A DNA stretch of 60,266 bases from Oscillatoriales cyanobacterium CG2_30_40_61. GTDB taxonomy: Bacteria; Cyanobacteriota; Cyanobacteriia; Cyanobacteriales; Microcoleaceae. Positions 14,864 through 58,634 of this stretch are shown here, piece after piece; position 1 is the first letter of the stretch, and each line of letters starts with the position of its first letter. Both the position numbers and the translations under genes were made by a program. The stretch lies in assembly GCA_001873365.1 (NCBI GenBank), contig MNYZ01000005.1, positions 1 through 60,266 of the forward strand, written 5' to 3'. The notes beneath the pieces are model-generated. The model was not told where the DNA came from and ran no database searches. It worked only from the letters and a program-made list of their open reading frames with translations.

Positions 14864-15982
14864 TTGAAAGTTTGGAAAAAATGGGTTAAAAGTCTGATGG
14901 TTTTAGGCTGTAGCTTTGTGTTTTTAACAGCTTGTTCGGTTCCCCAAGTATCGGCGGAATCTCGAATGTTTATTGATTTATCTCTAAACTTTTTAGGGAA
15001 GTATGAACTCTCAAAATCTATTATATTTGATAATCAACCCGTCGGTAATTTCTCGTCCCTAACCTACAAAATACCCGGTTATGGAAGCCCAACAGATGAA
15101 GGAATTAGGTTTTATGGGTTAACAGATTCTCTAGGAAAATTTTATACTTTTAAAGTTGATTTAAACCCGGCTGAACCCACGAATTTTAAAGATATTACCC
15201 TAGAAAATTCAACCCTGATTAAAAATCAACAAAATCAGCCCCTATATCCCGATAGTATTGCTTTTTCTCCTCGAAATTCCGTTTTTATTGCAACAGAAAA
15301 TTTAGAAAATTCCGAGGTTCCTCCATCCATTGCTGAATATGATTTAACCACCGGACAATTAAAAAATACAGTTCCCCTTTCCTCCTTTTATCTTCCTCAA
15401 TTCCAAGACTCTGAACAAATTCGAGGAATAGAACCCCAATTCGGCTTTAAAGGCTTAACTATTTCTCCCGATGGGTTTAGTCCCGATGGTCGAGATCCCT
15501 TTCGGTTATTTACTGTCACCGAAAAACCATTAATTCAAGATCGAGATCCAGAGGATGAAACTAAATTAAGATTATTGCATTATGTAATAGCAGATAGAGC
15601 CTCTTTTTTAGTTTCAGAAACCCTATATCTTTTAGATAAAAGCTCTCAAAATTTAGTTAATATTGTCGCCGGTCAAAGCGGAAGTTTTCTAAGTTTAGAA
15701 CAATCATCAGACAGTGGAAAAATTTATCAATTATTCACCGGAGATGCAACGGATACCTCCCGCATTGCGAGTTTAAAAGGAGACCTCAGCAAAATCCAAC
15801 CCGTGCGCAAAAAACTATTATTAGATTTACAAGACCTAGGAATAACTGTTCCCAATTTAACCGGAATGACCCTAGGATCTCGTTTACCCGATGGAAGTCA
15901 AAGCTTAGTGATTTTGAATCATCAAAATGATGGAACTGAGTTTTTATTATTCAGTTTGAGATCAGATAATATCAGAGATTAG
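14864..15982 (+). CDS. Lipoprotein with esterase-like phytase domain
   Basis: I chose the TTG at 14864 because GGAGGAGAG lies just upstream and the product then begins as a lipoprotein: KVWKKWVKSLMVLG, then lipobox LTAC with Cys24. A TTG at 14804 would add 20 unlikely residues. The 372-residue product has a beta-propeller-like series (FSSLTYK, FYGLTDS, DSIAFSPR, GLTISPDGF, GMTLG) typical of the esterase-like activity of phytase family. Substrate unknown. It would be anchored to the outside of a membrane. Confidence 0.78.
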   Translation: MKVWKKWVKSLMVLGCSFVFLTACSVPQVSAESRMFIDLSLNFLGKYELSKSIIFDNQPVGNFSSLTYKIPGYGSPTDEGIRFYGLTDSLGKFYTFKVDLNPAEPTNFKDITLENSTLIKNQQNQPLYPDSIAFSPRNSVFIATENLENSEVPPSIAEYDLTTGQLKNTVPLSSFYLPQFQDSEQIRGIEPQFGFKGLTISPDGFSPDGRDPFRLFTVTEKPLIQDRDPEDETKLRLLHYVIADRASFLVSETLYLLDKSSQNLVNIVAGQSGSFLSLEQSSDSGKIYQLFTGDATDTSRIASLKGDLSKIQPVRKKLLLDLQDLGITVPNLTGMTLGSRLPDGSQSLVILNHQNDGTEFLLFSLRSDNIRD

Positions 15983-16052
15983 AAAATTTTGCTTTTAATT
16001 TCTGATTCCGTTGTATCCTAAAAAACGAAGTTAAGCAACTTTGATAAAAGTT

Positions 16053-16643
16053 ATGACTCATTCCACTGATACTGTTAAACTAGCGAAATTAATGGCGGCG
16101 GACTTTAGTAACCAAGCCCAAGCCTTTGAAAACCCGCCTTTTTTTGCCCATATTCGGGTGTGTATGCGTCCCCTACCCGTAGAATTATTAGATGGAATCA
16201 GCTTGTATTTAGAACAGGCTTATGATATTAACTTAAAACAACCCTATCGAGTGCGGGTATTAAAATTAGTTGCGGTGGAAAATCACATTGAAATTGAGAA
16301 TTATGTGATCGAAAACGAACAGGAATTTTATGGCGCATCCCGGGAGCCCGAAAGACTTCAAGGGTTAACAAAAGAACGATTAAAAAAAATGGAACAATGT
16401 TCTTTTATTACCCATTGGACAGGAAAGGGTTTTAAAGGGGAAGTTGAACCCGGAAAAGGATGTATGGTGGAACGCAAAGGGAAAGTTACCTATCTCGCGA
16501 GTGAATTTGAAATTGACGAACACCATTTTATTAGTCACGACCGAGGACACGACCCCGAAACCGATGAACAACTGTGGGGCGCCTTGGCTGGGCCATTTCA
16601 ATTCGTGCGCTGGACAAGTTTTGCGGACGAGGTAAAAATTTGA
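16053..16643 (+). CDS. cpcT: Phycobiliprotein chromophore lyase CpcT/CpeT
   Basis: The 196-residue protein matches CpcT across its length: MTHSTDTVKLAKLMAADFSN, NPPFFAHIRVCMRPLP, EQEFYGASREPERL and VEPGKGCMVERKG are family signatures. CpcT attaches phycocyanobilin to the Cys-153/155 position of phycocyanin beta. I chose ATG 16053 over a TTG at 16041 because it matches the family N-terminus. The paralogue CpeT acts on phycoerythrin, so the exact substrate is inferred. It sits 58 bp before sqdB. Confidence 0.88.
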   Translation: MTHSTDTVKLAKLMAADFSNQAQAFENPPFFAHIRVCMRPLPVELLDGISLYLEQAYDINLKQPYRVRVLKLVAVENHIEIENYVIENEQEFYGASREPERLQGLTKERLKKMEQCSFITHWTGKGFKGEVEPGKGCMVERKGKVTYLASEFEIDEHHFISHDRGHDPETDEQLWGALAGPFQFVRWTSFADEVKI

Positions 16644-16659
16644 TCCCCTTTCCTGATAA

Positions 16660-17929
<1,270 letters not shown>

Positions 17930-17992
17930 ATTCAATATCAATCTAATAATGAAATCCCTAGATGATATGAATTGTAATAAGGAGGATGCGCT

Positions 17993-19102
17993 GTGAAAGT
18001 AGAGGCTATATCAATTGAAAACTTCAAACGCTTTGATCGGTTAGAAGTATCTTTCAAAAATTCAATCTTGGGCGAGGTTAGTGATCGTTTTTTGATTCTA
18101 GGAGATAATGGCAGCGGAAAGACGACTTTGTTACAAGCGATCGCTCTACCTTTAGCCCTAGCAACAGGCAAAATTCAAACGATTACAGACTTCAACTGGA
18201 CAGGCTTTCTAGCAGAACGTTATTGGCGTTGGGGGAGTCCTCGAATTGAACTGGAAGTATCTTTTGAAGCAGAAGAATTAGAAGCCACCCGTGAAATTGC
18301 TAGAAAATGGTATAGTTCCCAACCCCCTGAATTCCAAAAAGAACATGAATTTGTTGAGCCAGGTGATAGTCCAACAGTAACATTATTGCTCAGTGGAGAT
18401 TATTGGAAAGCGGGCAATACTCCTGCTGAACGCGCCCAATTTCGGGGACGCTATTATGCTCAGTGGTTTATTAACCGAGGAGATCAGTCTGTTCGTTCAG
18501 ACTTCTCTTTGTTACCTGGAATCTTTTGGTTTGACCAATTTCGCAATCTCGGAACTCCACAAGCTCAAGAAGGGATGGGCGAACGGGTTAAAGACGGCAG
18601 TAGTGGCGTTTCTTTTGAAATGGGGGTGGGTCGTCTGCGCCAATATCTGATCGAGTGGCGACGCAAGCAAGAGCGAGGAGGTATCAACTCTAGGAATGAC
18701 TACATTACGCAACTTGAGAAAGTTTACAAAAGGATTTTTCCAGATCGTTCCTTTTCGGGAATTGAACAATTACCAAGTCTTGATTCTCCGACAGAAGAAA
18801 CTTCTTACTTCTTACTCAACGACGGATATCGAACTTACGATATTGTTGAGATGTCAGCCGGAGAACAATCTGTATTTCCGATTTTGTATGAATTTGTTAG
18901 GCAGCAAATCGCCTACTCCGTTGTCCTGATTGACGAAATTGACTTGAATCTTCATCCCCCTGCGGCTCAGTTTCTCGTTAGTCAGTTGCTTAAAATTGAC
19001 CCCACCTGTCAGTTTATCTTCACGACTCATTCAGAAGCGGTTATGGATGTTGTCGGTCAAAGTGAAACCTACCGTTTAGCTGGAGGTGCGCTGTGTCTAT
19101 AA
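17993..19102 (+). CDS. AAA/ABC-type ATPase of a PARIS-like defence pair
   Basis: The 369-residue SMC/ABC-type ATPase begins MKVEAISIENFKRFDRLEVSF, with Walker A GDNGSGKTT (38-45), a signature-like EMSAGEQSV near 285, Walker B VVLIDEIDLNLHP (about 309-321) and FTTHSEAV near 345. It starts at GTG 17993 after GGAGG. It overlaps the next gene, a DUF4435 protein, by 10 bp. AriA (ATPase) with AriB (DUF4435 TOPRIM nuclease) is the PARIS anti-phage system; that assignment is inference from the pairing. OLD/Gabija-type ATPases are alternatives. Confidence 0.78.
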   Translation: MKVEAISIENFKRFDRLEVSFKNSILGEVSDRFLILGDNGSGKTTLLQAIALPLALATGKIQTITDFNWTGFLAERYWRWGSPRIELEVSFEAEELEATREIARKWYSSQPPEFQKEHEFVEPGDSPTVTLLLSGDYWKAGNTPAERAQFRGRYYAQWFINRGDQSVRSDFSLLPGIFWFDQFRNLGTPQAQEGMGERVKDGSSGVSFEMGVGRLRQYLIEWRRKQERGGINSRNDYITQLEKVYKRIFPDRSFSGIEQLPSLDSPTEETSYFLLNDGYRTYDIVEMSAGEQSVFPILYEFVRQQIAYSVVLIDEIDLNLHPPAAQFLVSQLLKIDPTCQFIFTTHSEAVMDVVGQSETYRLAGGALCL

Positions 19103-19938
19103 CCGTTCTCTATTGCGAGGGAAACCCCCAAAGTATTGATATTCGTGTCATTCGTCAACTACTTCCTAGAGAATGTACAATTCGTCCATTGGGAGGTAAA
19201 ACTTCTAGTTTTATGCAGAGTATTATTAGCGATCGCAATATCAATCCGAATTTAGCTGGATTGGTAGACCATGATTTTGATTGTCGTGACTGGGAATCTA
19301 ATGGTCATCCTATCCCTTGTAACTATCAGAATATTCAAGTGGGTTGGGCATGGGAAAGAAAAGAGATCGAAAATTATCTTATTGATCCAAAGATTGTTCA
19401 GAAGGCTTTAGGAAGGAAAACCCCAGCAGAATACCAATCTGTTTTAGCCAAAGCAGCAAAAAAGATCGCAACTTATACAGCAGCCCGAACCGCATTATCT
19501 TGTTCGGGTTTTAAAAACTTTTGGGGAGAAGAAATCAAAGATAGCCATTTTCCCAAAAGCTATCGTTTTCCGACGAAAGAAGTAGATAAAAACATCTGTC
19601 ACATCAAACTTGAAGAAATTGTTAGAGAATTTAAAGGGAATCGTCTTGTTGAAACTGACAATGTTATCGAGAAATTTGAACAGTTGCTTCCTTCTTTTAA
19701 GCCTGGGGGGTTCCGATTTGAGAATTTTTTAACTTATTTCGCAGGAAAAGATATCTTATGTGCAATGAAAGAAGATTTAATCTACTTGGGATTTGATTTT
19801 GATAATCCAATTCATCAGTTTCTTGAACGAATTGTTACTAGAATTGAAAGAGCAGAAGACGTTTGGAGATGGCTCCCTGAATGGCAAAATCTTCGAGATA
19901 TTATTCACAACTATAATTCTGATTTTCATCCTTTCTAA
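19093..19938 (+). CDS. DUF4435 (TOPRIM-like) effector of the PARIS-like pair
   Basis: The 281-residue protein opens VLYCEGNPQSIDI with Glu9 in the position of the TOPRIM glutamate, then LGGKTSSF, GLVDHDFDC (Asp59, Asp61, Asp63) and ERKEIENYLI, the pattern of DUF4435. In PARIS, AriB of this family is released by the ATPase trigger and cuts tRNA. GTG 19093 follows GGAGG by six bases and overlaps the ATPase stop, so translation is coupled. The C-terminal half (about 150-281) I do not recognise in detail. Function is inferred. Confidence 0.7.
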   Translation: MSITVLYCEGNPQSIDIRVIRQLLPRECTIRPLGGKTSSFMQSIISDRNINPNLAGLVDHDFDCRDWESNGHPIPCNYQNIQVGWAWERKEIENYLIDPKIVQKALGRKTPAEYQSVLAKAAKKIATYTAARTALSCSGFKNFWGEEIKDSHFPKSYRFPTKEVDKNICHIKLEEIVREFKGNRLVETDNVIEKFEQLLPSFKPGGFRFENFLTYFAGKDILCAMKEDLIYLGFDFDNPIHQFLERIVTRIERAEDVWRWLPEWQNLRDIIHNYNSDFHPF

Positions 19939-20020
19939 TATTGCAGACCTGCCACTAATTTTACCAGAAACATAACCTCTAAAAAGTATTCCCCTCGAGA
20001 CACGGGGAACCAGGGGTTGA

Positions 20021-20116
20021 TATAGCAACCGCACCTAGCTATTAGGACTACTTATCGGCTGTCATTACCGCCTTAGTGCGGTAATCCATGTCAATAGCGT
20101 TATGGCGACTGCTATA
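20021..20116. mobile_element. MITE-like element with TATAGCAnnCGC ends
   Basis: TATAGCAACCGC (20021-20032) and GCGACTGCTATA (20105-20116) are inverted with 10 of 12 matches; inside is ATTACCGC-CTTAGT-GCGGTAAT, a perfect 8-bp hairpin. It is non-coding and lies directly before the second copy of the sqdB tail. Confidence 0.5.
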
Positions 20117-20120
20117 ATAG

Positions 20121-20224
20121 CCAAATTATGCCCAAGGTTTCCTGGCGTAATCCGGGTTAATTTATGATCATGTTTACTATAGAGAGGGGTTAGGATCTAT
20201 ACAGTAAGCCTTTGATTGTGTTAT
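20121..20224 (+). repeat. Direct repeat, sqdB 3' end and flank, copy 2
   Basis: Begins CCAAATTATGCCCAAGG and keeps the end of the sqdB reading frame ([11 protein letters not shown] and stop) with no sqdB body upstream. It differs from copy 1 by several substitutions and a small deletion after the stop. It marks the right edge of the inserted or duplicated segment. Confidence 0.85.
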
Positions 20225-20328
20225 AATTCTATAGATGAGCTTCGTCGGAATCTACTTTTAGAAAACCTCAATAAAAATATTGACCGCTTGGAATTGTTGC
20301 AGAATCGCTTAATACCTTATCTATATCT
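20225..20328 (+). other. Open stretch upstream of the DUF3370 gene
   Basis: A reading frame without a start encodes DELRRNLLLENLNKNIDRLE and more to about 20352 on the plus strand, out of phase with the DUF3370 gene. It looks like a helical protein fragment, possibly a gene remnant. No promoter boxes were recognised. Confidence 0.35.
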
Positions 20329-21726
20329 ATGTTTCCTTTTATTTCTCCATTGATTTTAGCAGAAATTATTACTATTCCTCCTCCAAATTCAGGGAAACGA
20401 TATATTACCCAAGCGCAAGAAATCCGGGTTTTACCTGGAAAATTAAATGAAATTCCGGTGTTTAATAGTAATAGTCCCGAAGTTGTTAAAGGCGAAGGAA
20501 TTTTATTATCTACCTTTCCTCAAACGGCTAAAAAATTCCCAAATGCCCATCTAAATGTTCCAATTAGTGGCGAGTTTGAGTTTTTTTCCCATCATATTGC
20601 TCGTCCGATTAATAAACAACAAACTTTATATCAAGGCGTATTAGTTTATAATCCCAGTGCTCGACCGGTGACTCTGAATATTCTCCAAGGGTTGAGTTAT
20701 GTGACCTCACCGGACGCGCCTTTTGTCGAACTCCCCTCACTGGTGGAAGACCCCCAGGGTCGGGTGTTTTCTGGGCCCGGGTCTAGGGTAGCCGGGGATA
20801 TGTTGCGGGGAAGACATCAACGCAGCTTTCCCGAACAAATAATGATTGGGCCCCAACAAACCCAAATATTGTTTAGTTTGCCGATTCCAACGGCGAGCGC
20901 CCGCTCAACCCTACTCCGATTACAAAGTAATGGCCCCGTACATTTAGCGAATTTAGTCCGGTTTAATCCCCCGGCAGGTTCTCCGATGATGCCCCCTATT
21001 CCGAGATTTCCTTTAACTCCTTTTTTAGCTCCACTTATCTCACTTTCTAACCCATGGCAGGATTTTTTAAATCTAGGAAAACTCGCCGAACCCCGAGATG
21101 TGATCCCAACTCCCGGGGAAAATGTCTATACCGGAGAAAAGGTTTATGGTCGTGTGGCTGGGGTATCTGTAGGGTCTGAATGGACTGGAACATTGGTAGA
21201 CCGTCCGGGGATGAATTATTTAACCATTCCCGATCGCGGATCTGCTTTTTCCTATCCTTTAAGTACGGTATCAACGGCAACACTAGGAACCCAACAGGTT
21301 CAAAGCGCACCTCTGTTAGCTCGTTATCCAGATACAGCTTTGCGCGCCCACGGCAATTATGGTGTCCGTTATAATCTCACTTTACCCCTATACAATCCTA
21401 CATCACAACCCCAAACGGTGAGTTTATCGATTCAAACTCCGTTTAAACAAAACGTAGCATCAAATCGATTAACCTTTATCGAACCGCCCCAGGGACAGGT
21501 ATTTTTCCGAGGGACGGTGCGACTGAGTTATGTTGATGATTTTGGACAAACCCAACAGCGTTATTTTCACCTCGTCCAACGTCAGGGACAGCAGGGGGAA
21601 GGGTTAGTCAGCTTAAATTTACCCGCCGGGGGCTCTCGTGGGGTAGGAGTAGAGTTGATTTATCCTCCCGACGCCACTCCGCCCCAAGTCTTAACGGTGA
21701 AAACCTTGGACATTCAGAGAAACTAA
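20329..21726 (+). CDS. DUF3370 domain protein
   Basis: The 465-residue protein fits the cyanobacterial DUF3370 family: QEIRVLPGKLNEIPVFNSNS, LLSTFPQTAKKFPNAHLN, TLYQGVLVYNPSARPVT, FSGPGSRVAGDMLRG and STLLRLQSNGPVHLANL. Predominantly beta structure, probably exported: the N-terminus MFPFISPLILAEI is short but signal-like. Function is unknown. The start ATG 20329 lacks a clear ribosome-binding site. Its end lies just before the second AGGACTTACGCA element. Confidence 0.82.
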   Translation: MFPFISPLILAEIITIPPPNSGKRYITQAQEIRVLPGKLNEIPVFNSNSPEVVKGEGILLSTFPQTAKKFPNAHLNVPISGEFEFFSHHIARPINKQQTLYQGVLVYNPSARPVTLNILQGLSYVTSPDAPFVELPSLVEDPQGRVFSGPGSRVAGDMLRGRHQRSFPEQIMIGPQQTQILFSLPIPTASARSTLLRLQSNGPVHLANLVRFNPPAGSPMMPPIPRFPLTPFLAPLISLSNPWQDFLNLGKLAEPRDVIPTPGENVYTGEKVYGRVAGVSVGSEWTGTLVDRPGMNYLTIPDRGSAFSYPLSTVSTATLGTQQVQSAPLLARYPDTALRAHGNYGVRYNLTLPLYNPTSQPQTVSLSIQTPFKQNVASNRLTFIEPPQGQVFFRGTVRLSYVDDFGQTQQRYFHLVQRQGQQGEGLVSLNLPAGGSRGVGVELIYPPDATPPQVLTVKTLDIQRN

Positions 21727-21729
21727 TTC

Positions 21730-21819
21730 AGGACTTACGCAAATTGGGGGATGTAACCCTAGATGTAGGGGTAATTCATGAATTACCCCTACTATTGATA
21801 GCGGTGATGCGTAAGTCCT
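21730..21819. mobile_element. MITE-like element with AGGACTTACGCA ends, copy 2
   Basis: Perfect 12-bp inverted termini AGGACTTACGCA (21730-21741) and TGCGTAAGTCCT (21808-21819). Inside is a perfect palindrome centred on ATTCATGAAT with arms GTAGGGGTA and TACCCCTAC (21765-21792). The interior differs from that of the element at 9841-9949. AATT lies on both sides, a possible target duplication. Confidence 0.75.
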
Positions 21820-21875
21820 GTAATTGAGAAATGCGGTAGCCAGAAGCCCAAGAAACCCGGTTTTTTTTGCCTAAA

Positions 21876-23027
21876 TTAATGGTTTAATACCCGTTTTAGA
21901 GCCGATAATAATAACAGCACATTTTCAGGACGGCTATTATATCCCATCAGTCCCACTCGCCAAACTTGACCGGCTAACTCTCCTAAACCATTGCCAATTT
22001 CAATATTATATTCGGTCAAAAGTTGACGGGAAATTGCTTTTCCATCCACCCCTTCAGGAATACGAACCGTTGTTAAAGTCGGTAAACGATAATCTTCATG
22101 AACATGACACACTAATCCTAACTCCTCTAACCCCTCCCATAACAATTTAGCATTAGTTAGATGACGATTCCAACTGGTTTCTAATCCTTCTTGGGCTAAA
22201 ATTATGAGTGCTTCTCGTAACCCATAATTCATATTAACCGGGGCGGTATGATGATAGACTCTATCCTGACCCCAATATTGGGAAAGTAGAGAAATATCTA
22301 AATACCAATTCGCCACTTTTTTCGGACGATTTTTTAAGATTTCAACGGCGCGAGGACTCATGGTAAACGGCCCCAAACCCGGAGGACAACCTAAGCCTTT
22401 CTGACTACAACTATAGGATAAATCCACACCCCAAGTATCTAAAAATAGAGGTACACCGCCTAAACTGGTGACGGTATCTACTAATAATAAACAATCAAAT
22501 TCTCGACACAATTGACCTAACCCTTCCAAGGGTTGACAGGCGCCTGTCGAGGTTTCCGCATGAACAATGGCTAAGACCTTGGGACGATGGGTTTCTAGCC
22601 CTTGCCGCAGTTCTTCCAAACTAAATACTCGCCCCCAGGGTTTGACTAATTTTCGCACATCCGCCCCATAACGGCCGGCCATATCCACTAACCGATGGCC
22701 AAAATACCCCATCACCCCGACTAAAACCACGTCCCCAGGTTCAACAATATTGGCTAGGGTCGCTTCCATGGCAGCGCTTCCCGTCCCACTCATGGGGATA
22801 GTCATGGGGTTATCAGTTTGCCAAGCATAGCGCAACAGGGTTTGTACCTCGTCCATCAGTTGCAGAAAATAGGGGTCGAGGTGTCCGATGGGGGACATCG
22901 CCAGCGCTTGTAATACCCGTGGGTTGGCATTAGATGGCCCTGGCCCTAACAACAGACGGGGAGGGACATTCAATTCCGGGGGAATGATGCGGTTTTTATC
23001 ACTAACGGCGGCAGGAACTATACTCAT
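21876..23027 (-). CDS. Class V aminotransferase (alanine/serine-glyoxylate aminotransferase-like)
   Basis: The 383-residue PLP enzyme has LLLGPGPSNANPRVLQALAM, the PLP phosphate pocket GTGSAAMEA, the cofactor Asp context LLVDTVTSLGG and the Schiff-base Lys in CSQKGLGCPPG near residue 210. These enzymes transaminate glyoxylate in photorespiration; the close phylogenetic class also contains the large subunit of a soluble hydrogenase, an old misannotation. Substrate specificity is not visible. Convergent with the DUF3370 gene. Confidence 0.88.
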   Translation of the reverse strand: MSIVPAAVSDKNRIIPPELNVPPRLLLGPGPSNANPRVLQALAMSPIGHLDPYFLQLMDEVQTLLRYAWQTDNPMTIPMSGTGSAAMEATLANIVEPGDVVLVGVMGYFGHRLVDMAGRYGADVRKLVKPWGRVFSLEELRQGLETHRPKVLAIVHAETSTGACQPLEGLGQLCREFDCLLLVDTVTSLGGVPLFLDTWGVDLSYSCSQKGLGCPPGLGPFTMSPRAVEILKNRPKKVANWYLDISLLSQYWGQDRVYHHTAPVNMNYGLREALIILAQEGLETSWNRHLTNAKLLWEGLEELGLVCHVHEDYRLPTLTTVRIPEGVDGKAISRQLLTEYNIEIGNGLGELAGQVWRVGLMGYNSRPENVLLLLSALKRVLNH

Positions 23028-23118
23028 AAAATCATGGTTTACTCAATACTATGATTTTGCTGTAAAATGACCGAAATTGACGTTAAGAAGATTGACATTT
23101 TTCTATTCAGGAAACCCG

Positions 23119-26100
23119 ATGCAAGTAACTAAAACCTTATTTCAAAATAAAATACTCAATAATGCTATCCGCAATTTTACCTTTCCTGATGATTTGCTAG
23201 ACCGTCATAATATTCTTCAAGGTTGGATTAATACCCTCAAAGAAGGAACTTTAGAAAAAGTCAAAGAAACGTCTTTACAGGGGGATTTTTTAAAAGACAT
23301 TTTTCAGGATATTTTAGGCTATCGGTCTGTAATTTCAGGAGAAGGAAAAACCTGGGAAATTCACGCCGAACAAACGATTTCTGATGGGGGTGGGTTTGCG
23401 GATGGTGCGTTAGGATTATTTACGGCTATTGAAGGCAAACTACAGGGTAAAATTATTGCACCTATTGAATTAAAAAGTGCTAAAAACGATTTAGATCGAC
23501 CTGCACCCGGACGCAAACTTTCTGCGGTTGAACAGGGTTGGCAATATGCGAATTATACGGAAAATTGTCGTTGGGTGATTGTATCTAATTATCGAGAATT
23601 ACGTCTTTATCAACTTAGCAAGACTCCGGCTTATTTTGAACGTTTTTTATTAACTGAATTGGAAGCTATCGCAAATTTTAAAAAGCTATATTATTTACTC
23701 TGTCGGACTAATTTTCTACCCAAAACCGGACAACAACAATCGGTTATTGATCGATTATTAGCTGATTCCGATACCGCCCAAGAAGAAATTACAGAACAAC
23801 TCTATCAAGATTATCATAATGTACGGATTAATCTCGTTAATCATTTTCGTTTCACCGGGCCGAAAAATCTCCCAAATCGAGATAATGTTTTAATTGAAAA
23901 AGCTCAAAAAACCTTAGATAGAATCTTGTTTTTAGCCTTTTGTCAAGATCGAGGGTTATTACCGAAAAATACCCTCAATAATGCTCATGATCACAAAGAT
24001 CCTTATAATCCTAGATTCATTTGGGATAATTATAAATCAGTATTTTCTTGGGTTGATAAAGGGAATGAAGATCCGCCAATTCCGGGTTATAATGGAGGTT
24101 TATTTGAACATGATCCGTTATTAGATGAACAATTAACGGTTACTGACCCTCTGTGTACACAACTCAAAAATTTAACTAAATATGACTTTGAAACTGAGGT
24201 TTCTGTTGATATTTTAGGGCATATTTTTGAACAATCAATTACGGATTTAGAAGCATTAAAAGCTAAAACTCAAACCCAAGAATTTAATCCCAAATCAGGG
24301 AAACGTAAAACCCAAGGAATTTTTTATACTCCGGCGTTTATTACTCAATATATTGTGCAGGTAGCGTTGGGTGGTTATCTCAAACAAAAAGAAGATGAAT
24401 TGCGCGATCGCTTTCAATTAAATATTACCACAAAAACCAACAAAAAGCAAGAAAAACAGGCAGAAATTCAATTTTGGCAAACCTATCGAGATCAAGTTTT
24501 AAAACAAACCAAAGTTTGTGATCCCGCTTGCGGTTCCGGGGCATTTTTAATCGCGGCTTTTGATTATTTATTCCAAGACTATCAACGAGTCAATCAAGCC
24601 TTATCTTCCCTGATCACAACACCAGAAACAGAGTTAGAACGTTTAGATACAATGATTTTAACTCAAAACTTATATGGGGTTGATTTATCGGCGGAGTCGG
24701 TCGAAATTACTAAATTATCCCTGTGGTTAAAAACGGCTGAATCTGGAAAATTCTTAACGGATTTAGATGATAATATTAAACAAGGTAATTCTATTATTGC
24801 TGATCCTGAATTTACCGATAAACCCTTTAACTGGGAAACAGAATTTCCTGAAGTTTTCACAACGGGGGGTTTTGATGTGGTGATTGGAAATCCTCCCTAT
24901 GTGCGACAAGAATTATTATCCCCCATTAAACCCTATTTAAAACAGCATTATCAATCCTATAATGGGGTGGCTGATTTATACGCTTATTTCTATGAAAAAG
25001 GGTTAAATATCCTCAAACCTGCTGGGAAGTTATCTTATATTGTTACTAATAAATGGTTAAAAGCGGGTTATGGTGAACCCTTGCGACGGTTTTTTATTGA
25101 AAATAGCACCTTTGAGCAAATTATTGATTTTGGACACGCCCCAATTTTTGAGGATGCAGATACTTTTCCCTGTATTATATCCGTTTATAAATCGTCTCCG
25201 TCTCCAACTGAAACCCCTGAACTGGAAACCTCTATTCCTTCTGAATTTAATGTTAAACTCTGTCCAGTTCCCAGGGAAAAATTAGCTAATATTAATTTAA
25301 CTCAATATGTCCAAAATGAAGGTTATGATGTTGCTTGGTCAAGGTTTACGGCTGAATCTTGGAGTTTAGAGCGTCCTGACGTTGAGGAGTTAATGAAAAA
25401 AATTCAGCGTGTAGGAATTCCTCTCCAAGATTTCGCCGGGGTTAAACCGTTATATGGAATTAAAACCGGATTAAATGAGGCTTTTTTAATTGATGAGGAA
25501 ACTAAAAATAAAATTATTCAAGCTGACCCAAAATCCGCCGAAATTATTAAACCTTTACTCCGAGGTCAGGATATTAAACGGTGGTATTCTAAATCAGAAA
25601 ATTTATGGATAATTTTTACTAGACGAGGGTTAGAAATTGATGATTATCCTGCTATTAAAAATCATCTCAATTCCTATCGCCAAAAATTAGAATCTTGTCC
25701 CAAAAATTGGAATAAAAACCAAGATGGTGAATGGTTAGGACGGAAAGCGGGTCATTATCAATGGTATGAAATTCAGGATGCAGTAGATTATTGGGAAATT
25801 TTGGAACAACCCAAAATCCTTTATCAAGAAATTAACACATATCCAGCTTATACAATAGATACGAACAATTACTATGTCAATAATAAAGTTTTTATTTTAC
25901 CGAAAGCAGATTTTTATATTTGCGGTTGTCTTAACTCGCCTTTAGGTTGGTGGATAGCCCATCAATTATTCCCCAAAATGATAGGAGATTCTGTTACACC
26001 CCGTGGAGATTTAATGATTAATTTCCCTATCGGAGAACCTACAGATCAAATTCGTAATGAAGTTGAATCAATTGTTACCCGATTAATTGAGATCACAAAA

Positions 26101-26460
26101 ACTAATCAAACCGCTAATAATGATGTTTTAACCTGGCTACAAATTCAATATAAAGTTAAAAATATTACTCGAAAATTAGAAAACTTTGCCGATCTCAATT
26201 TTGAAGAATTAATCGAAGAAGTGATCAAACAATTACCAAAAAGTAAATCATCCGACCCCTTGGGAGTCAAAGGGTTAAAATCTATTCGAGAAGCCTATAA
26301 CGAATATGTACCCGAAATTCAAACTCGTAAACAAGAAGCCTTAAAATTAGAACAGCGTTTATCAGATTTAGTCAATCAAGCCTATCAATTAACACCAGAA
26401 GAAATCGAATTAATGTGGAAAACAGCACCCCCTAGAATGCCATTTTATCGCTCAGTTTAA
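23119..26460 (+). CDS. Single-chain restriction-methylation enzyme (type IIG-like, Eco57I family)
   Basis: The 1113-residue protein carries an N-terminal nuclease-like region (PIELKSAKNDLD near residue 115, an ExK-type motif preceded by FADGALGL), a gamma-class N6-adenine methyltransferase core with motif I DPACGSGAF (about 468) and motif IV NPPYVRQE (about 591), and a C-terminal target-recognition part (about 780-1000). ATG 23119 follows AGGAAA; an upstream in-frame start at 23077 is less likely. The layout is that of type IIG enzymes that cut and methylate alone. No separate endonuclease, specificity or BREX gene adjoins it. Confidence 0.85.
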   Translation: MQVTKTLFQNKILNNAIRNFTFPDDLLDRHNILQGWINTLKEGTLEKVKETSLQGDFLKDIFQDILGYRSVISGEGKTWEIHAEQTISDGGGFADGALGLFTAIEGKLQGKIIAPIELKSAKNDLDRPAPGRKLSAVEQGWQYANYTENCRWVIVSNYRELRLYQLSKTPAYFERFLLTELEAIANFKKLYYLLCRTNFLPKTGQQQSVIDRLLADSDTAQEEITEQLYQDYHNVRINLVNHFRFTGPKNLPNRDNVLIEKAQKTLDRILFLAFCQDRGLLPKNTLNNAHDHKDPYNPRFIWDNYKSVFSWVDKGNEDPPIPGYNGGLFEHDPLLDEQLTVTDPLCTQLKNLTKYDFETEVSVDILGHIFEQSITDLEALKAKTQTQEFNPKSGKRKTQGIFYTPAFITQYIVQVALGGYLKQKEDELRDRFQLNITTKTNKKQEKQAEIQFWQTYRDQVLKQTKVCDPACGSGAFLIAAFDYLFQDYQRVNQALSSLITTPETELERLDTMILTQNLYGVDLSAESVEITKLSLWLKTAESGKFLTDLDDNIKQGNSIIADPEFTDKPFNWETEFPEVFTTGGFDVVIGNPPYVRQELLSPIKPYLKQHYQSYNGVADLYAYFYEKGLNILKPAGKLSYIVTNKWLKAGYGEPLRRFFIENSTFEQIIDFGHAPIFEDADTFPCIISVYKSSPSPTETPELETSIPSEFNVKLCPVPREKLANINLTQYVQNEGYDVAWSRFTAESWSLERPDVEELMKKIQRVGIPLQDFAGVKPLYGIKTGLNEAFLIDEETKNKIIQADPKSAEIIKPLLRGQDIKRWYSKSENLWIIFTRRGLEIDDYPAIKNHLNSYRQKLESCPKNWNKNQDGEWLGRKAGHYQWYEIQDAVDYWEILEQPKILYQEINTYPAYTIDTNNYYVNNKVFILPKADFYICGCLNSPLGWWIAHQLFPKMIGDSVTPRGDLMINFPIGEPTDQIRNEVESIVTRLIEITKTNQTANNDVLTWLQIQYKVKNITRKLENFADLNFEELIEEVIKQLPKSKSSDPLGVKGLKSIREAYNEYVPEIQTRKQEALKLEQRLSDLVNQAYQLTPEEIELMWKTAPPRMPFYRSV

Positions 26461-26498
26461 GTTGAAAAGGAAATCGCCTACTATGGGTTATAAAGATA

Positions 26499-26513
26499 AG
26501 AAACCCGGTTTCT
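26499..26513. repeat. AGAAACCCGGTTTCT palindrome
   Basis: Perfect 15-bp palindrome 39 bp after the methylase stop. Degenerate relatives follow at about 26579 (GAGAAACCAGGTTTTT) and 26630 (AGAAACACGGTTTCT), and the same core is found inside the 9841 element and near 21850. Confidence 0.6.
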
Positions 26514-26539
26514 GTTCTGGGGATTTTCTACATATCATT

Positions 26540-26562
26540 GTAGTAAGCCCTTCAGGGCTTAG
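26540..26562. repeat. GTAGTAAGCCC palindromic repeat, copy 2
   Basis: GTAGTAAGCCC-TTCA-GGGCTTAG; the right arm is degenerate after TTAG. Located between the methylase and galE. Confidence 0.7.
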
Positions 26563-26677
26563 TCCTAGTCATCCCATTGAGAAACCAGGTTTTTGAGATA
26601 GTTTTTATTAAAGATAGACATATTTTGTTAGAAACACGGTTTCTGATCCTATTGAAAATTTATAAGTGTTAGAAAGA

Positions 26678-26698
26678 AAGCCCTGAAGGGCTTACTAC
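26678..26698. repeat. GTAGTAAGCCC palindromic repeat, copy 3 (right half)
   Basis: AAAGCCC-TGAA-GGGCTTACTAC, ending 3 bp before the galE stop codon. Together with copy 2 it forms a larger inverted arrangement across 26540-26698. Confidence 0.7.
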
Positions 26699-26700
26699 GG

Positions 26701-27699
26701 TTAGGTGTGGCGTTTTTGATGCCAATTCCAAGCGTGGGTGATAATATTTTGAATATCGGGATATTCAGGATTCCAACCTAATATTGATCGGGCTTTTTCT
26801 CCACTTCCAACTAAACTTGGTGGATCTCCGGGGCGGCGATCGCATTCAATTACTTTAATCTCTTTTCCTGTAATTTCTCTAGCGGTTTCTATCACCTCTT
26901 TAACAGAAAATCCTTTCCCATTTCCCAAATTAAATACATTGGTTTCTCCACCATTCAATAAATATTCTAACCCTAAAATATGGGCGGTTGCTAAATCAGT
27001 AACGTGAATATAATCCCGAATACAAGTGCCGTCGGGTGTGGGATAATCAGTCCCAAAAATAGAAATAGAATCTCGTTTTCCTAATGCTGCTAATAACGTT
27101 AAGGGAATTAAATGGGTTTCGGGATTATGATCTTCTCCTAATAACCCCTCTGGGTCGGCTCCGGCGGCGTTAAAATAACGGAAACGTACCGATTTAAAAT
27201 CATAGGCGACATCAAAATCTGATAGAATTCTTTCCACCATTAATTTAGTCACCCCATAGGGATTAATCGGATTTTGGGGATGATCTTCAGGAATAGGAAC
27301 AATATCAGGAACCCCGTAGGTGGCGCAGGTTGAGGAAAACACAAACTTATTAATTCCCGCCTCCTTCATTGCTTCCAATAACGTTAAAGTTCCTACCACA
27401 TTATTGCGATAATATTTATCAGGATTGGTAACAGATTCCCCCACATAAGCATAAGCAGAAAAGTGCATCACCGCATCAATTTTACGACTAGAAAATAACT
27501 GATCGAGCAACGGACGATCATTAGTATCCCCAATAATTAACTCCGTTTTTAAGACCGTTTCCACTAAGTCTTGATGTCCATAAACTAAATTATCCAGAAT
27601 AATCACATCATAGCCCGAACGTTGCAGCGCTAGAACCGCATGGGAACCAATATAACCCGCTCCACCAGTAACTAAAATAGTCGTTTTATCTTCAGACAT
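26701..27699 (-). CDS. galE: UDP-glucose 4-epimerase
   Basis: GalE interconverts UDP-glucose and UDP-galactose. The 332-residue extended SDR protein has TGGAGYIGSH (residues 11-20), FSSTCATYG (about 122-130) with the active-site Ser/Thr, NPYGVTK (about 146) with the catalytic Tyr and Lys, and RYFNAAGADPEG and RDYIHVTDLA typical of GalE. It precedes a zinc-ribbon gene and a glycosyltransferase on the same strand, suggesting surface polysaccharide synthesis. Confidence 0.93.
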   Translation of the reverse strand: MSEDKTTILVTGGAGYIGSHAVLALQRSGYDVIILDNLVYGHQDLVETVLKTELIIGDTNDRPLLDQLFSSRKIDAVMHFSAYAYVGESVTNPDKYYRNNVVGTLTLLEAMKEAGINKFVFSSTCATYGVPDIVPIPEDHPQNPINPYGVTKLMVERILSDFDVAYDFKSVRFRYFNAAGADPEGLLGEDHNPETHLIPLTLLAALGKRDSISIFGTDYPTPDGTCIRDYIHVTDLATAHILGLEYLLNGGETNVFNLGNGKGFSVKEVIETAREITGKEIKVIECDRRPGDPPSLVGSGEKARSILGWNPEYPDIQNIITHAWNWHQKRHT

Positions 27700-49101: not shown

Positions 49102-49944
49102 CTAATCATATTGTTGACAGATGGCTTGGGCTTCTTGCTTGAGGCGATCGCGCACACTATCCGGTGCAACAATTTCACAGAGGGAGCGATAGACCAAAAT
49201 CTCGCGGATCAGCCAAAAAGTGTTCGACACCCGACGCACCACTATCAGGATATCACCCTCCCGTTGCTTGCTGAGGTCGTCCCGTTTTGACTCGTAGCTA
49301 TTCGCCAGTTCCCCCTTAAAGTGTAAGTACACTTTGATAAAATCTAAATCGTCTCGCCATATTCCCTCCCCGGGCAGGATATTCAGATCCGTAATCCGAT
49401 CCAGACGCAGGGAACGGTTATGGGCCAATTCCGGTAAATCCCGGTTGCCCTCGGTTTCCTCGCTCCAGATCTCCAAATATAGTCGTTTTTCCCGAAACAC
49501 AATTTCCGCATAACGGACGGTATACATCCAATCTCGCTGTTGAGCATCTCGATAGAGAAGGCGAAAGGGTTGGCGACGGGCAATTTGCTGATCCAGTAAG
49601 ACTCGCCAAGCCGGGAGGGAGTGACTGATCTGTTGGAGAAAGGACTGACGCAGGGGGGAGGCCAGATTTCCCCGTTCTAGGAGCAGGGCCATTAATGCTT
49701 GGGCTTCGCTAATGTAACCGCAGTCAATCAGGGCTTTCGTCCCTTGCTCCAAGGCTTGTACTTGCACTGAACTTAAGGTAAAGCGATCGCCCACTTCCAA
49801 TTCTGAACGGGCGATCGCCACTAATAAGCCCGATATACTAGGGCGATCGCCCCATAGAATCTGAAATCTAGCCGCGATCGCTTCTAGTTGCTCCTTCGTT
49901 CCCGGGGGAATAGACAGTGTAATAGTTTCTTTTTTCCGAGCCAT
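49102..49944 (-). CDS. WYL domain transcriptional regulator, CRISPR-linked
   Basis: The 280-residue protein has a ribbon-helix-helix-like N-terminus (KKETITLSIPPGTKEQLEAI), then a WYL domain with RQPFRLLYRDAQQRDWM, AEIVFREKRLYLEIW and RSLRLDRITDLNIL. ATG 49944 is preferred over ATG 49983. It is divergent from cas3 with 90 bp between. WYL regulators sit next to several CRISPR loci; Synechocystis Sll7009, beside a type I-D locus, represses crRNA. A similar role here is inference. Confidence 0.85.
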   Translation of the reverse strand: MARKKETITLSIPPGTKEQLEAIAARFQILWGDRPSISGLLVAIARSELEVGDRFTLSSVQVQALEQGTKALIDCGYISEAQALMALLLERGNLASPLRQSFLQQISHSLPAWRVLLDQQIARRQPFRLLYRDAQQRDWMYTVRYAEIVFREKRLYLEIWSEETEGNRDLPELAHNRSLRLDRITDLNILPGEGIWRDDLDFIKVYLHFKGELANSYESKRDDLSKQREGDILIVVRRVSNTFWLIREILVYRSLCEIVAPDSVRDRLKQEAQAICQQYD

Positions 49945-49957
49945 ATTAATTTTATAC

Positions 49958-49986
49958 TTGCATATTTGATAAAGCCGTGCCATAAT
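49958..49986 (+). promoter_or_regulatory. Candidate cas operon promoter
   Basis: TTGCAT (49958-49963), 17-bp spacer, CATAAT (49981-49986), giving a start about 41 bp before the cas3 GTG at 50035. It falls between the divergent WYL gene and cas3, where a repressor site would be expected. Confidence 0.45.
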
Positions 49987-50034
49987 CGGTCTATTAACAA
50001 CTATAAACGACCCGTCACCATTCTAGGGGAAATC

Positions 50035-52164
50035 GTGAAAATTACGCTACTTCCTTTATATTCTCAGCAAAATACCGATGTTCAGGGCTGTCCATTGGGA
50101 TGTCGGGGTGAGTGCAAAGTCAAACAGCAGGCCCCGAACTTTGGTCAAAATCCAGAGATTTCCTGCCCTTTGTCCGTACACCAGGTAGAAACCTGCGCCG
50201 AAGTCCTCCATGGCTCGGCTGAGATTATTTTTAACACCTCAGCCACCGGAGATGGCAAATCCCTGGCGGCCTACTTAGGGGGATTACTTAATCCTAAATT
50301 TCGGACAATTGCCCTATATCCAACCATTGAATTAGTCACGGATCAAGAAAAACAAGTTAGAAATTATTGCCAAGATTTTAATTTAGATGGAAGTCGGCGC
50401 GTCGATAGTTTGTATGGAGTGGAATTAGCCCGACGGGTAGAAATTGCAGAAAAAAGTAACAAATTTAAGGAATTATCAAAAGTAATTGAACATAAACCTA
50501 TTATTCTGACAAACCCCGATATTTTCCACTTAGTAACCCACTTTCGCTATTATAATCCAGCCTATAATCGCGCCTGGTTGCCCTTACTTTTAGCCAGAAA
50601 TCCCGATCTCTATGTTGCCGATGAATTTCATATTTTTGGAGTGCATCAAGAAGCCGCTATTCTGAATAGTTTGCTATTAATTCGTTATAACCGACCGCGT
50701 AAACGTCCGATGAAAGTTTTATTCACTTCCGCCACCCCTAAACCCAGTTTTATTCAGAAGCTAGAAAAAGCGGGATTTCAAGTGACTAAAATAGCGGGAA
50801 ATTATGCTTCTGAACCTACTGCTGGATATCGGCAAATTTTGCAGTCAGTTGAACTCAAATTTGTGCAGTTAGATCGAGATTCAGATAGTTTAACTTGGTT
50901 AAAAGAACAGGCGGAATTGATCCAAAAATTGCTAGAAACAGAAGGTCAAGGACGGGGATTAATTATTCTTAATTCCGTCGCCCAAGTGAGTCGCGCTGTT
51001 CGAGAATTACAAGCCATTTTTCCAGAAGATCAAATCAAAGTTCGAGAGATTAGTGGCCGAATTGATCGACAGGAAAGAACGATCACCCAAACCGAGTTAA
51101 AAAATGCTAAACAATCGGTTTTAGTAATAGGAACATCGGCGGTAGATGTGGGAGTAGATTTTAAAATTCATTTGCTTATTTTTGAGGCTAGTGATTCTGC
51201 AACTTGTATTCAAAGGTTAGGTCGGTTAGGTCGTCATCCTAATTTCTCCAGTTACAATGCTTATATATTACTTCCCGGTCGCGCTCCTTGGATTGAAGCC
51301 AGATTAGCTGAAAAATTAACAGCAGCGCAAGAAATTGATCGAACAAATTTTAGAGAAATTCTGGAAGATGCTTTTAATCCTCCGACGGAATTTGAGCAAT
51401 ATCGGAATTATTGGGGAGCCTTACAAGCTCAAGGAATGTTGTTAAAAATGACCGGAGAAAATACGGCGGTGATGGAGTCAATTCATCAGAATATGAGTCA
51501 GGATTTAAGACAAATTTATGGAGAAAAATTAGATAAAAAACGGGGTCATTGGTGTGCATTAAGTAAAGATTCAACGGGTCAGGCGGTACAGGAGGAATTA
51601 TTAAGGTTTCGAGGCGGGTCAGACCTACAAGCGGCGGTTTGGGAGGGTTCTCGGTTTTATACCTATGATTTATTGCGGCTTTTACCCTATGCAGAAGTAG
51701 AAATTATTGATGCTCAGACTTTTATAGAAGCTGCTGAAAAATTCAACCATCCAGCCACGGAATTTCCTGATCAATATATCCAAGTTTACTTAAAAATAAA
51801 ACAATGGACAGATCGACGATTTGATATTCAATTAGAATGCGATCGCACCACCGAAGAACTCAAACAATGTACGTTAATTCTATTAGATAAACTAACAATT
51901 GTTGGACACCCCCAAGGGGAAGTTAAAAAATGTCTGCGTAAGCGCAAATTACTGGCTTTTATTGTTTCGGTAAACCGGAATCAAGCCTATAGTCATTGGG
52001 AAATCAGTCGCAAATTGCATCTTAATCCTACTTTTGGATTATATCGTTTAACCGATGTCGATGGTGTTGCCTATGGCTGCGCTTTTAATCAAGATGCCTT
52101 GCTTTTAGAAGCGATGAAATGGCGACTCAAACCTTGCGAAACTGCCCAACCTTATATTTTTTAA
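50035..52164 (+). CDS. cas3: Type I-D Cas3' helicase
   Basis: The 709-residue helicase has Walker A TSATGDGKSLAAYL, motif II ADEFH (DEFH in place of DEAH), motif III FTSATP and motif VI QRLGRLGRH. The N-terminus has a cysteine cluster CPLGCRGEC with a further CPLS, a likely zinc site seen in type I-D proteins. No HD nuclease domain is present; it is on Cas10d in this subtype. GTG 50035 follows TAGGGGAAATC. Acts after Cascade binds target DNA. Confidence 0.93.
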   Translation: MKITLLPLYSQQNTDVQGCPLGCRGECKVKQQAPNFGQNPEISCPLSVHQVETCAEVLHGSAEIIFNTSATGDGKSLAAYLGGLLNPKFRTIALYPTIELVTDQEKQVRNYCQDFNLDGSRRVDSLYGVELARRVEIAEKSNKFKELSKVIEHKPIILTNPDIFHLVTHFRYYNPAYNRAWLPLLLARNPDLYVADEFHIFGVHQEAAILNSLLLIRYNRPRKRPMKVLFTSATPKPSFIQKLEKAGFQVTKIAGNYASEPTAGYRQILQSVELKFVQLDRDSDSLTWLKEQAELIQKLLETEGQGRGLIILNSVAQVSRAVRELQAIFPEDQIKVREISGRIDRQERTITQTELKNAKQSVLVIGTSAVDVGVDFKIHLLIFEASDSATCIQRLGRLGRHPNFSSYNAYILLPGRAPWIEARLAEKLTAAQEIDRTNFREILEDAFNPPTEFEQYRNYWGALQAQGMLLKMTGENTAVMESIHQNMSQDLRQIYGEKLDKKRGHWCALSKDSTGQAVQEELLRFRGGSDLQAAVWEGSRFYTYDLLRLLPYAEVEIIDAQTFIEAAEKFNHPATEFPDQYIQVYLKIKQWTDRRFDIQLECDRTTEELKQCTLILLDKLTIVGHPQGEVKKCLRKRKLLAFIVSVNRNQAYSHWEISRKLHLNPTFGLYRLTDVDGVAYGCAFNQDALLLEAMKWRLKPCETAQPYIF

Positions 52165-52168
52165 AATC

Positions 52169-55123: not shown

Positions 55124-55157
55124 ACCTAAAATTAACCATTTCAAGGAGATAATTACA

Positions 55158-56162
55158 ATGGCAATTCTCGAAACACTTAAACCAGAATTTCAAGCCGCTT
55201 TTCCCCGTTTAGCTTCCGGTAAATATGTACACTTTTTAATGGTACGTCATAGTCAATCCTTCCCCGTTTTTCAGACCGATGGTGTGCTGAATACCGCACG
55301 GACTCAAGCGGGATTAACTACGGTTGATTTCCTCAGTCGTTTAGTGATGTTTAAACGCAAACAAATCACCCCGGAAAGATTAGCAGGACGGGAATTATTA
55401 CGGTCTTTAACCTTAACCAGTGCCACCGAAGGTACAGAAAATGGTTGTGAATATAATGGGGAAAAATCCTGTAAAAAATGCCCCGATTGTATTCTTTATG
55501 GGTTTGCCATTGGTGATAGCGGATCGGAACGTTCTAAAGTATATTCAGATTCGGCTTTTTCTCTGACTCCTTACGAAAATTCTCACCGTAGTTTTACCTT
55601 TAATGCTCCCTTTGAAGGGGGAACTATGAGCGAAAAAGGGGAAATGCGAAGTGCAATTAATGAATTAGATCATGTTCTGCCCGAGGTGGCATTTCCGACG
55701 GTAGAAACCCTGCGTGATTCAACCTTTGAAGGGTTTATTTATGTGTTAGGAAACTTGTTAAGAACCCGGCGTTATGGCGCACAGGAATCGCGCACAGGAA
55801 CCATGACTAATCATTTGCTGGGACTGGTGTTTTGTGATGGGGAAATCTTTAGTAATCTGCATTTTACCCAGGCAATTTATGATCAGTTAAAGCCAGATAT
55901 TAATGCTCCGATTAGTGATATTTTGACTAAAGCAACGGAAGTGGCTGATAATTTAATCAAAAAGGAACCTGTGCGGAAAAGTCAGGTAATTTTACGTCCT
56001 CAATTGGATGAGTTATTAACAGAAGTGAGTGCAATTTATCAGGATGAAACCCGCTTGCGAGAAACTTTAACTACTCTGTATCAACAGACGAAAAGCTATG
56101 CCGAAACCTATGGTGCTTTAACTAAGGAAAAAGGCAAAGGGAAAGGAAAATCTAGTTCTTAA
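55158..56162 (+). CDS. csc2: Csc2 (Cas7d), backbone of type I-D Cascade
   Basis: The 334-residue protein starts MAILETLKPEFQAAFPRL at ATG 55158 after AAGGAGAT. It contains the four-cysteine zinc site GCEYNGEKSCKKCPDC and the characteristic FTFNAPFEGGTMSEKGE and RRYGAQESRTGTMTN. It polymerises along the crRNA. A palindrome cluster follows in the gap before csc1. Confidence 0.95.
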   Translation: MAILETLKPEFQAAFPRLASGKYVHFLMVRHSQSFPVFQTDGVLNTARTQAGLTTVDFLSRLVMFKRKQITPERLAGRELLRSLTLTSATEGTENGCEYNGEKSCKKCPDCILYGFAIGDSGSERSKVYSDSAFSLTPYENSHRSFTFNAPFEGGTMSEKGEMRSAINELDHVLPEVAFPTVETLRDSTFEGFIYVLGNLLRTRRYGAQESRTGTMTNHLLGLVFCDGEIFSNLHFTQAIYDQLKPDINAPISDILTKATEVADNLIKKEPVRKSQVILRPQLDELLTEVSAIYQDETRLRETLTTLYQQTKSYAETYGALTKEKGKGKGKSSS

Positions 56163-56164
56163 TC

Positions 56165-56184
56165 AGTTGTTGTGCTTTAGCACT
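56165..56184 (+). repeat. Palindromic 20-mer AGTTGTTGTGCTTTAGCACT, copy 1
   Basis: Contains hairpin GTGCTTTAGCAC. Immediately follows the csc2 stop; 21-bp period to copy 2. Confidence 0.8.
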
Positions 56185-56185
56185 G

Positions 56186-56205
56186 AGTTGTTGTGCTTTA
56201 GCACT
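56186..56205 (+). repeat. Palindromic 20-mer, copy 2
   Basis: Identical to copy 1 and in the same orientation. Confidence 0.8.
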
Positions 56206-56260
56206 CGATTTTGGTATTAAAGTAAGCTGGAAATTCCGTGTTTTCTTTTAAACCTTTGGG

Positions 56261-56280
56261 TGCGCTGAAGCGCAACAACT
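56261..56280 (-). repeat. Palindromic 20-mer, copy 3, inverted
   Basis: On the minus strand AGTTGTTGCGCTTCAGCGCA, related to copies 1 and 2 with compensated changes (T to C). It can pair with copy 1 or 2 to make a long hairpin between csc2 and csc1. Confidence 0.75.
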
Positions 56281-56306
56281 TTTATAAAATTTTTGAGGAA
56301 AATTTG

Positions 56307-57923: not shown

Positions 57924-57959
57924 GTACCAGTTATTATTTGTCAGTTTTTGCTTAACAGA

Positions 57960-58628: not shown

Positions 58629-58634
58629 CTGAAA

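Follow-up and report, generated by a model that had tools for sequence, protein, structure and literature searches.

We found in a cyanobacterial genome (Oscillatoriales cyanobacterium CG2_30_40_61) a pair of overlapping genes that probably forms a two-gene abortive-infection module working like PARIS, in which an ATPase would restrain a TOPRIM ribonuclease that is released upon infection. The pair is a PARIS-like variant and is not filed as a PARIS member, because its second protein falls outside the published DUF4435 rule and its ATPase is not of the AriA type. In PARIS, an AriA hexamer sequesters AriB and frees it on sensing phage proteins, and the released AriB cuts tRNA (PMC12409363, in excerpt; PMC11455837). 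In the pair described here, the OLD/ABC-type ATPase would be the sensor, binding and restraining the TOPRIM protein until a phage product alters the ATPase during infection. The freed TOPRIM protein would then dimerize, and its predicted metal-dependent active site (E9, D59/D61 and the conserved R89, E93 and N94) may cut RNA, most likely tRNA. Such cleavage would halt translation and thereby stop the phage.

The window, that is, the whole stretch of 60,266 nucleotides analyzed here, contains the features listed in Table 1. Both open reading frames are real, as the first-pass annotation had it, and they lie on the same strand with a 10-nt overlap. The GGAGG ahead of the ATPase start is at 17981. 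The start contexts read GGAGG-A-TGCGCTGTG for the ATPase and GGAGG-TGCGCTGTG for the second gene, and these are the only two occurrences of TGCGCTGTG in both strands of the window. This near-identity, pointed out in the annotation, is thus real and unique in the window, but it is private to this genome: the context is absent before the 17 other ATPase starts examined in branch 1, the branch of the family that includes this pair, and it was rejected as a family hallmark. At the junction, the ATPase ends in GG-x-L-C-L in 17 of 18 branch-1 loci, and the codons of this end include a G-rich GGxGG as well as the start codon of the second gene, ATG or GTG, again with a 10-nt overlap. The exception is L141, on a Calothrix plasmid, which has no effector relative. 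To judge from this conserved junction, the ATPase and effector genes may be translationally coupled. Regarding size, which the annotation considered unusual for both proteins, the ATPase is short: of 24 ATPases that accompany 30 DUF4435 loci of the phylum, 20 have 428-476 aa. The second protein is ordinary (DUF4435 proteins have 280-333 aa in 24 of these 30 loci).

Table 1. Position of the gene pair and of its bordering elements in the window
Feature	Position	Strand	Details and basis
Left direct repeat: sqdB end and hairpin behind sqdB	17813..17937	+	Repeat comparison
Inserted cassette	17938..20113	.	Absent from congener G387
ATPase start context, GGAGGATGCGCTGTG, nearly the same as that of gene 2	17981..17995	+	Private to this genome
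OLD/ABC-type ATPase, short form, putative sensor/regulator	17993..19102	+	369 aa, GTG start; ORF, Pfam, motifs, spacing
Junction: ATPase C-terminal GGxLCL codons with GGAGG ribosome-binding site and gene-2 GTG start	19082..19102	+	17/18 branch-1 loci
Putative TOPRIM effector, AriB-like predicted fold	19093..19938	+	281 aa, GTG start within the end of the ATPase gene; ORF, model, Foldseek, hhalign, conserved residues
Right direct repeat at the cassette border: incomplete second sqdB 3' end, with 86% identity across the full unit	20114..20233	+	Repeat comparison

Two other loci of the window are of note. A Type IIG restriction-methylation enzyme (23077-26460; PADLOC 480.8 bits) lies 3 kb downstream of the pair, separated from it by the DUF3370 gene and by a gene for a 383-aa protein; the latter gene is followed in the congener G387 by a different 479-aa ORF. 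The region 49888-59612 begins with a Cas3-like helicase (Pfam) followed by a 984-aa protein, and the genes after it presumably resemble csc2, csc1, cas6, cas4 and cas1; this region is probably a type I-D CRISPR-Cas locus. Rfam gave no matches in positions 15000-27000 of the window.

The ATPase has the Walker A (GDNGSGKTT), ABC-like signature (MSAGEQ) and Walker B (VVLIDEID) motifs that the first-pass annotation had read in it, as well as an H-loop (TTHS). The residues G37, N39, G42, K43, T44, S288, G290, E291, D314, E315 and H346 are invariant in all 27 aligned pairs. The PARIS detection rule, as given in excerpt from Rousset et al. 2022 (PMC9122126), combines an ATPase scoring at least 32 bits with AAA_15 or at least 27 bits with AAA_21 and an adjacent DUF4435 (PF14491) protein of at least 27 bits. 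The ATPase lies above both of its limits (AAA_15 62.3 bits, AAA_21 89.4 bits). Its scores for RecF/SMC models are far below that for AAA_21, and a housekeeping identity was rejected. The models scoring highest in PADLOC are those of PtuA. Both PADLOC models named AriA look generic, since they have 304 and 373 positions, as compared to 304 for Pfam AAA_21 and 374 for AAA_15, and their matches were discounted as evidence for AriA. Against solved structures, a profile of 19 family ATPases found the PtuA-type proteins of retron and Septu first (E 9e-24 to 3e-14), and AriA only at 1.2e-7. The control, a profile of 18 ATPases from the same phylum whose genes adjoin DUF4435 genes, found AriA first and nearly full length (1.7e-35), with PtuA at 3.3e-16. 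When the two ATPase families were aligned with each other by hhalign (99.3%), the alignment covered 81 C-terminal columns only.

The spacing between Walker A and signature is 245 residues in this ATPase and 229-253 in 37 ATPases of branches 1-3, this one included; one further ATPase, truncated at the end of its contig, lacks the motif and is outside this count. Of 25 canonical ATPase rows, 12 contained the motif patterns; nine of these have a spacing of 309-350 residues, and the remaining three have 276, 192 (in a copy of 314 aa) and 149 (in a fused protein). The segment is thus roughly 65-105 residues below most of the canonical ATPases measured. On this spacing and the profile rankings, the ATPase, presumably the sensor half, is of a short type that leans towards PtuA. 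Its structure model (pLDDT 54.2) was too poor to draw on. Because PtuA outranks AriA and the model is poor, a PARIS-like restraining complex cannot be assumed. The first-pass annotation had called for a comparison with AriA profiles and had named better ATPase matches to OLD/Gabija or RecF-type proteins as an argument against PARIS. Better matches do exist outside AriA, namely to PtuA, but those to OLD/Gabija or RecF are not better; the AAA_15 and AAA_21 scores agree with PARIS, while the ranking of PtuA above AriA among solved ATPases does not.

The second protein has no match at E<=1 in Pfam, DUF4435 included, or in NCBIfam. In six frames of its own genome DUF4435 has no match at E<=0.001, and among the genomes the DUF4435 matches miss all 7 intact branch-1 effector places. 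Only four of the 17 members of our effector profile (set A1; 15 from branch 1 and 2 from branch 2) match DUF4435 at E<=1. The PADLOC AriB model PDLC02983 matches the second protein weakly (24.9 bits, E 4.6e-6; PADLOC gives no cut-off), and at E<=0.01 the PADLOC AriAB model matches 16/17 and the AriB model 11/17 of the A1 members. An AlphaFold model built with 10 sequences (pLDDT 72.2) has the N-terminal alternation of strands and helices expected of TOPRIM. The best fold match of this model in the PDB (Foldseek) is AriB, 8v46_D, with E 1.9e-3, probability 0.99 and 15% identity over 328 alignment columns; no PDB match reached E<=0.001. The row after it stands at E 0.16 with a probability of 0.16, and the highest probability of a non-AriB entry among the best 50 of 468 rows is 0.85, for a designed protein. 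The placement of subdomains is uncertain, because the TM-scores to 8v46_D are low (0.36/0.34; rmsd 11.2).

Profile comparisons point in the same direction. Among 177,635 PDB sequences, the A1 profile placed two AriB sequences at the top, weakly (E 0.016 and 0.035), and the same AriB entries were found similarly weakly (E 0.005 and 0.023) by a control, the profile of 19 canonical DUF4435 proteins of cyanobacteria. This canonical set (A5) comprises 19 of 30 loci, the omissions being four without a detected ATPase, five fragments, one fused protein and one with an uncertain start; the 18 ATPase control loci above (A6) follow the same exclusions plus one row cut at a contig end. With hhalign, A1 aligned to the 19 cyanobacterial AriB proteins at 93.5% (E 2.3e-7, 188 columns) and branch 1 alone (A3) at 92.2% (E 5.9e-7). 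The alignment pairs EG, K36, DxDFD, E93 and GKD with the canonical EG, K59, DADFD, E107 and GHD. E9, G10, D59, F62, R89, E93 and N94 are invariant in all 27 aligned pairs, and D61 is present in at least 90% of A1. The description of this gene as DUF4435 TOPRIM-like therefore holds for the AriB-like predicted fold and for the alignment with cyanobacterial AriB, but not for Pfam DUF4435 itself, and of the AriB profiles proposed as a check, that of PADLOC gives a weak match and that of cyanobacterial AriB aligns with the profile of the effector family. A second gene without the DUF4435 fold, which the annotation had seen as refuting PARIS, was not what we found.

Septu consists of a PtuA ATPase adjoining the HNH nuclease PtuB. 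The PtuA of Septu and retron I-A is the top-scoring family for our ATPase, both in PADLOC and among solved structures, but the partner downstream is a TOPRIM protein and not PtuB, and membership in Septu was rejected. The joining of OLD-type ABC ATPases to TOPRIM, HNH or other nucleases is a known theme (PMC12839542 and PMC10568477, both in excerpt). Class 1 OLD and Gabija GajA use the same ABC ATPase and TOPRIM logic (PMC10568477, in excerpt), although there both domains are in one protein; they were rejected as an identity, since the domains here are encoded by two ORFs that overlap by 10 nt. A DNA-cutting module of the Septu-like or OLD-like kind, with a PtuA-type ATPase sensing the state of DNA or nucleotides and a TOPRIM protein nicking phage DNA as OLD and GajA do, is unlikely. 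The PtuA ranking of the ATPase would agree with it, as would the cutting of DNA by the TOPRIM domains of OLD proteins (PMC10568477, in excerpt), but the partner is not HNH and its fold matches AriB, the sole OLD-type nuclease among the best 50 of 468 Foldseek rows being that of retron Eco8 (E 1.4, probability 0.05).

The second protein found matches at E<=0.001 in 13 of 386 cyanobacterial genomes, its own included, and seven of these are full-length branch-1 copies. Among genome contigs, the same query, which as a single protein reaches close relatives only, gave 63 pattern matches, of which 15 loci were confirmed, all cyanobacterial, in Spirulina, Symploca, Arthrospira, Phormidium, Nostoc, Rhizonema, Calothrix and Dulcicalothrix and in MAGs (L028, a duplicate of L014, was dropped from the counts). 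Relatives were confirmed in none of the 4 and none of the 57 pattern matches in viral contigs. Plasmid records gave no match to the second protein at E<=1e-3 and phage records no ATPase relative at E<=1e-10; five plasmid records have an ATPase relative at E<=1e-20. In the 386 genomes, with at most 5 candidates scored per genome, the ATPase profile found 8 matches at 563-668 bits (branch 1, including this pair), 14 at 357-438 bits (branch 2) and 5 at 93-101 bits (branch 3), followed by a tail below 70 bits. A TOPRIM relative follows 12 of the 14 branch-2 ATPases (ten of at least 267 aa, one of 229 aa and one of 141 aa) and 4/5 of those of branch 3; of the two branch-2 ATPases lacking one downstream, one is at a contig end. 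Within the genus, 7 of 10 members match the effector profile, the window's own genome with 396 bits, four with 200-215 bits and two partially. Among the four, the match in G157 belongs to a branch-2 pair (L131) and that in G391 has an internal stop. A fused ATPase-TOPRIM protein of 535 aa (L051:1348-2955) matches both the ATPase and the effector profile (E 6.6e-10 and 2e-5), and may connect the fused with the split forms.

Within this cyanobacterial family of three branches, the ATPase and effector genes evolve jointly. All three branches are monophyletic in the midpoint-rooted FastTree trees of ATPase and effector, with supports of 0.87 and 0.70 for branch 1, 0.99 and 0.97 for branch 2, and 1.0 in both trees for branch 3. 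Distances of ATPases and effectors are correlated (Mantel) in branch 1 (r 0.87, n=13), in branch 2 (r 0.88, n=10) and over all 27 pairs (r 0.98), each with 0/2000 permutations; no correlation was seen in branch 3, which has 4 pairs only (r -0.22, 1438/2000 permutations). The suggestion of the first-pass annotation that the pair may be a divergent branch is supported.

Among the 25 branch-1 loci, the window included, both genes are intact in 13, and in two more, which a contig end truncates, the effector is intact. At five loci the ATPase is intact but the effector is broken or missing (L021, L026, L029, L034 and L141), five are remnants, and at none does a broken ATPase accompany an intact effector. 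The count of effector losses is small, L141 was found through its ATPase, and where an assembly is a draft, an isolated stop or frameshift may be a sequencing error. This one-sided loss fits an effector that would be costly unless restrained.

The sqdB 3'-end repeat that borders the cassette has exactly two copies in the genome. In G387 the site is empty, with the DUF3370 gene directly after sqdB. The sqdB stretch was matched in 10/10 members of the genus, and a further partial sqdB 3' end lies downstream in four, the window included. The inserts at this site vary. Three congeners have a gene with 24-nt tandem units, and one of them, G386, also has an AAA_21 ATPase paired with a protein of DUF4276, which we take to be a TOPRIM-like family. 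The G386 pair thus resembles ours in the type of ATPase, the TOPRIM-like partner and the chromosomal site, but its ATPase is nearest to generic AriA and AbiLi and its partner to HEC-01B (PADLOC); in a weak control with one DUF4276 sequence, hhalign gave 0.05% against our effector family. The genes with long arrays of 24-nt units, of 592-656 aa, lie beside partial sqdB 3' copies (L085:2077-3876, L092:3451-5421 and L093:2655-4433). A second slot, between arginase and ilvA, is occupied by a branch-1 pair at L016 (6426-11208) and, in a different genome, by a branch-3 pair (L139, 533-5475), and ilvA is in the same neighborhood at three more loci (L015, L137 and L140). A repeat across the pair was found in 3/23 tested loci of the three branches, and flanking repeats were rejected as a general hallmark: that of L014 has 74 nt and is the 3' end of a neighboring 403-aa gene, those of L027 are short and dispersed, and that of L128 has 21 nt. 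Together, the sqdB repeats, the shared slots and the L014 repeat suggest that cassettes are gained by recombination at the 3' ends of genes.

Branch-2 pairs are located inside DISARM in four of the five plasmid records with an ATPase relative (L142:976-10499, L143:742-10444, L150 and L151), all on conjugative Nostocaceae plasmids. A large gene comes first, then the branch-2 pair, then drmA and a DUF1998 gene. In three records drmA is annotated and the large gene, which overlaps the ATPase by 4 nt, is annotated as a DNA methyltransferase; the fourth has the same layout, with annotations that are only hypothetical and helicase-like. Three of the four records are in one replicon cluster, two have identical protein accessions, and the DrmA of L142 is 96% identical to that of L024, so that the embedding may go back to a single acquisition. 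L024 and L143 seem to be one plasmid. L024 is the only one of 14 branch-2 genome loci with a DrmA relative in its flanks (3-16 kb), 13 having none. Nine neighbors were tested by Pfam, seven at branch-1 and two at branch-3 loci; seven are housekeeping genes and two have a CHAT domain, and no known defense gene was found among the nine. The CHAT genes, both downstream of branch-1 pairs, encode a kinase-Macro-CHAT protein (L032:7436-11086) and a phosphoesterase-TPR-CHAT protein, with CHAT below the Pfam cut-off (L033:2362-6936).

These contexts bear on whether the pair could be a cassette similar to toxin-antitoxin systems, maintained by its own toxicity and with little or no role in phage defense. 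The gene overlap with its conserved junction, the loss of the effector but never of the ATPase alone, and the presence on plasmids would be expected of such a cassette. However, the sister branch is built into DISARM operons and the insertion slots are common to different ATPase and TOPRIM pairs, and we judge addiction to be improbable. That the pair is a true AriA-AriB system, merely drifted past the reach of HMMs, is very improbable, for the gene layout and the AriB-like fold agree with it but the second protein escapes the DUF4435 rule, the ATPase is not nearest to AriA whereas the canonical control is, its segment from Walker A to signature has 245 instead of mostly 309-350 residues, and hhalign covers so little of the canonical ATPases.

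A module working like PARIS, but separate from it, remains the preferred reading. From the PARIS layout recognized by the first-pass annotation, what persists is the arrangement and the AriB-like fold; the AriA identity of the ATPase and the DUF4435 assignment do not. As in PARIS, a proposed class 4 of OLD, an ABC/OLD-type ATPase gene is followed by a separate TOPRIM gene, whose product has an AriB-like predicted fold, TOPRIM catalytic residues and a similar size. PARIS pairs too sit within another defense operon, being embedded in BREX in Salmonella, where activity could not yet be shown (PMC11341690, in excerpt). Unlike in PARIS, the ATPase is shorter from Walker A to signature and nearer to PtuA than to AriA, the effector is missed by Pfam DUF4435, and a 10-nt overlap is conserved in branch 1. 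In the open-licence literature, as represented mainly by titles and abstract openings, we found no description of this branch.

Tentatively, the family may constitute a separate class of ABC ATPase and TOPRIM immunity, with a compact PtuA-like sensor and an AriB-like ribonuclease, in which three cyanobacterial branches, each with jointly evolving sensors and effectors, would swap into fixed chromosomal slots at gene 3' ends. One branch would back up DISARM from within, acting once a phage has disabled methylation-based defense, as PARIS may in BREX. The published DUF4435 rule misses the branch-1 systems. Since the Walker A-signature segment of this family is much shorter, it becomes testable which sensor part recognizes the phage. 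Our results suggest that AriB-type effectors are not tied to a single kind of sensor ATPase, and the sister branch embedded in DISARM would extend the logic of PARIS in BREX to DISARM.
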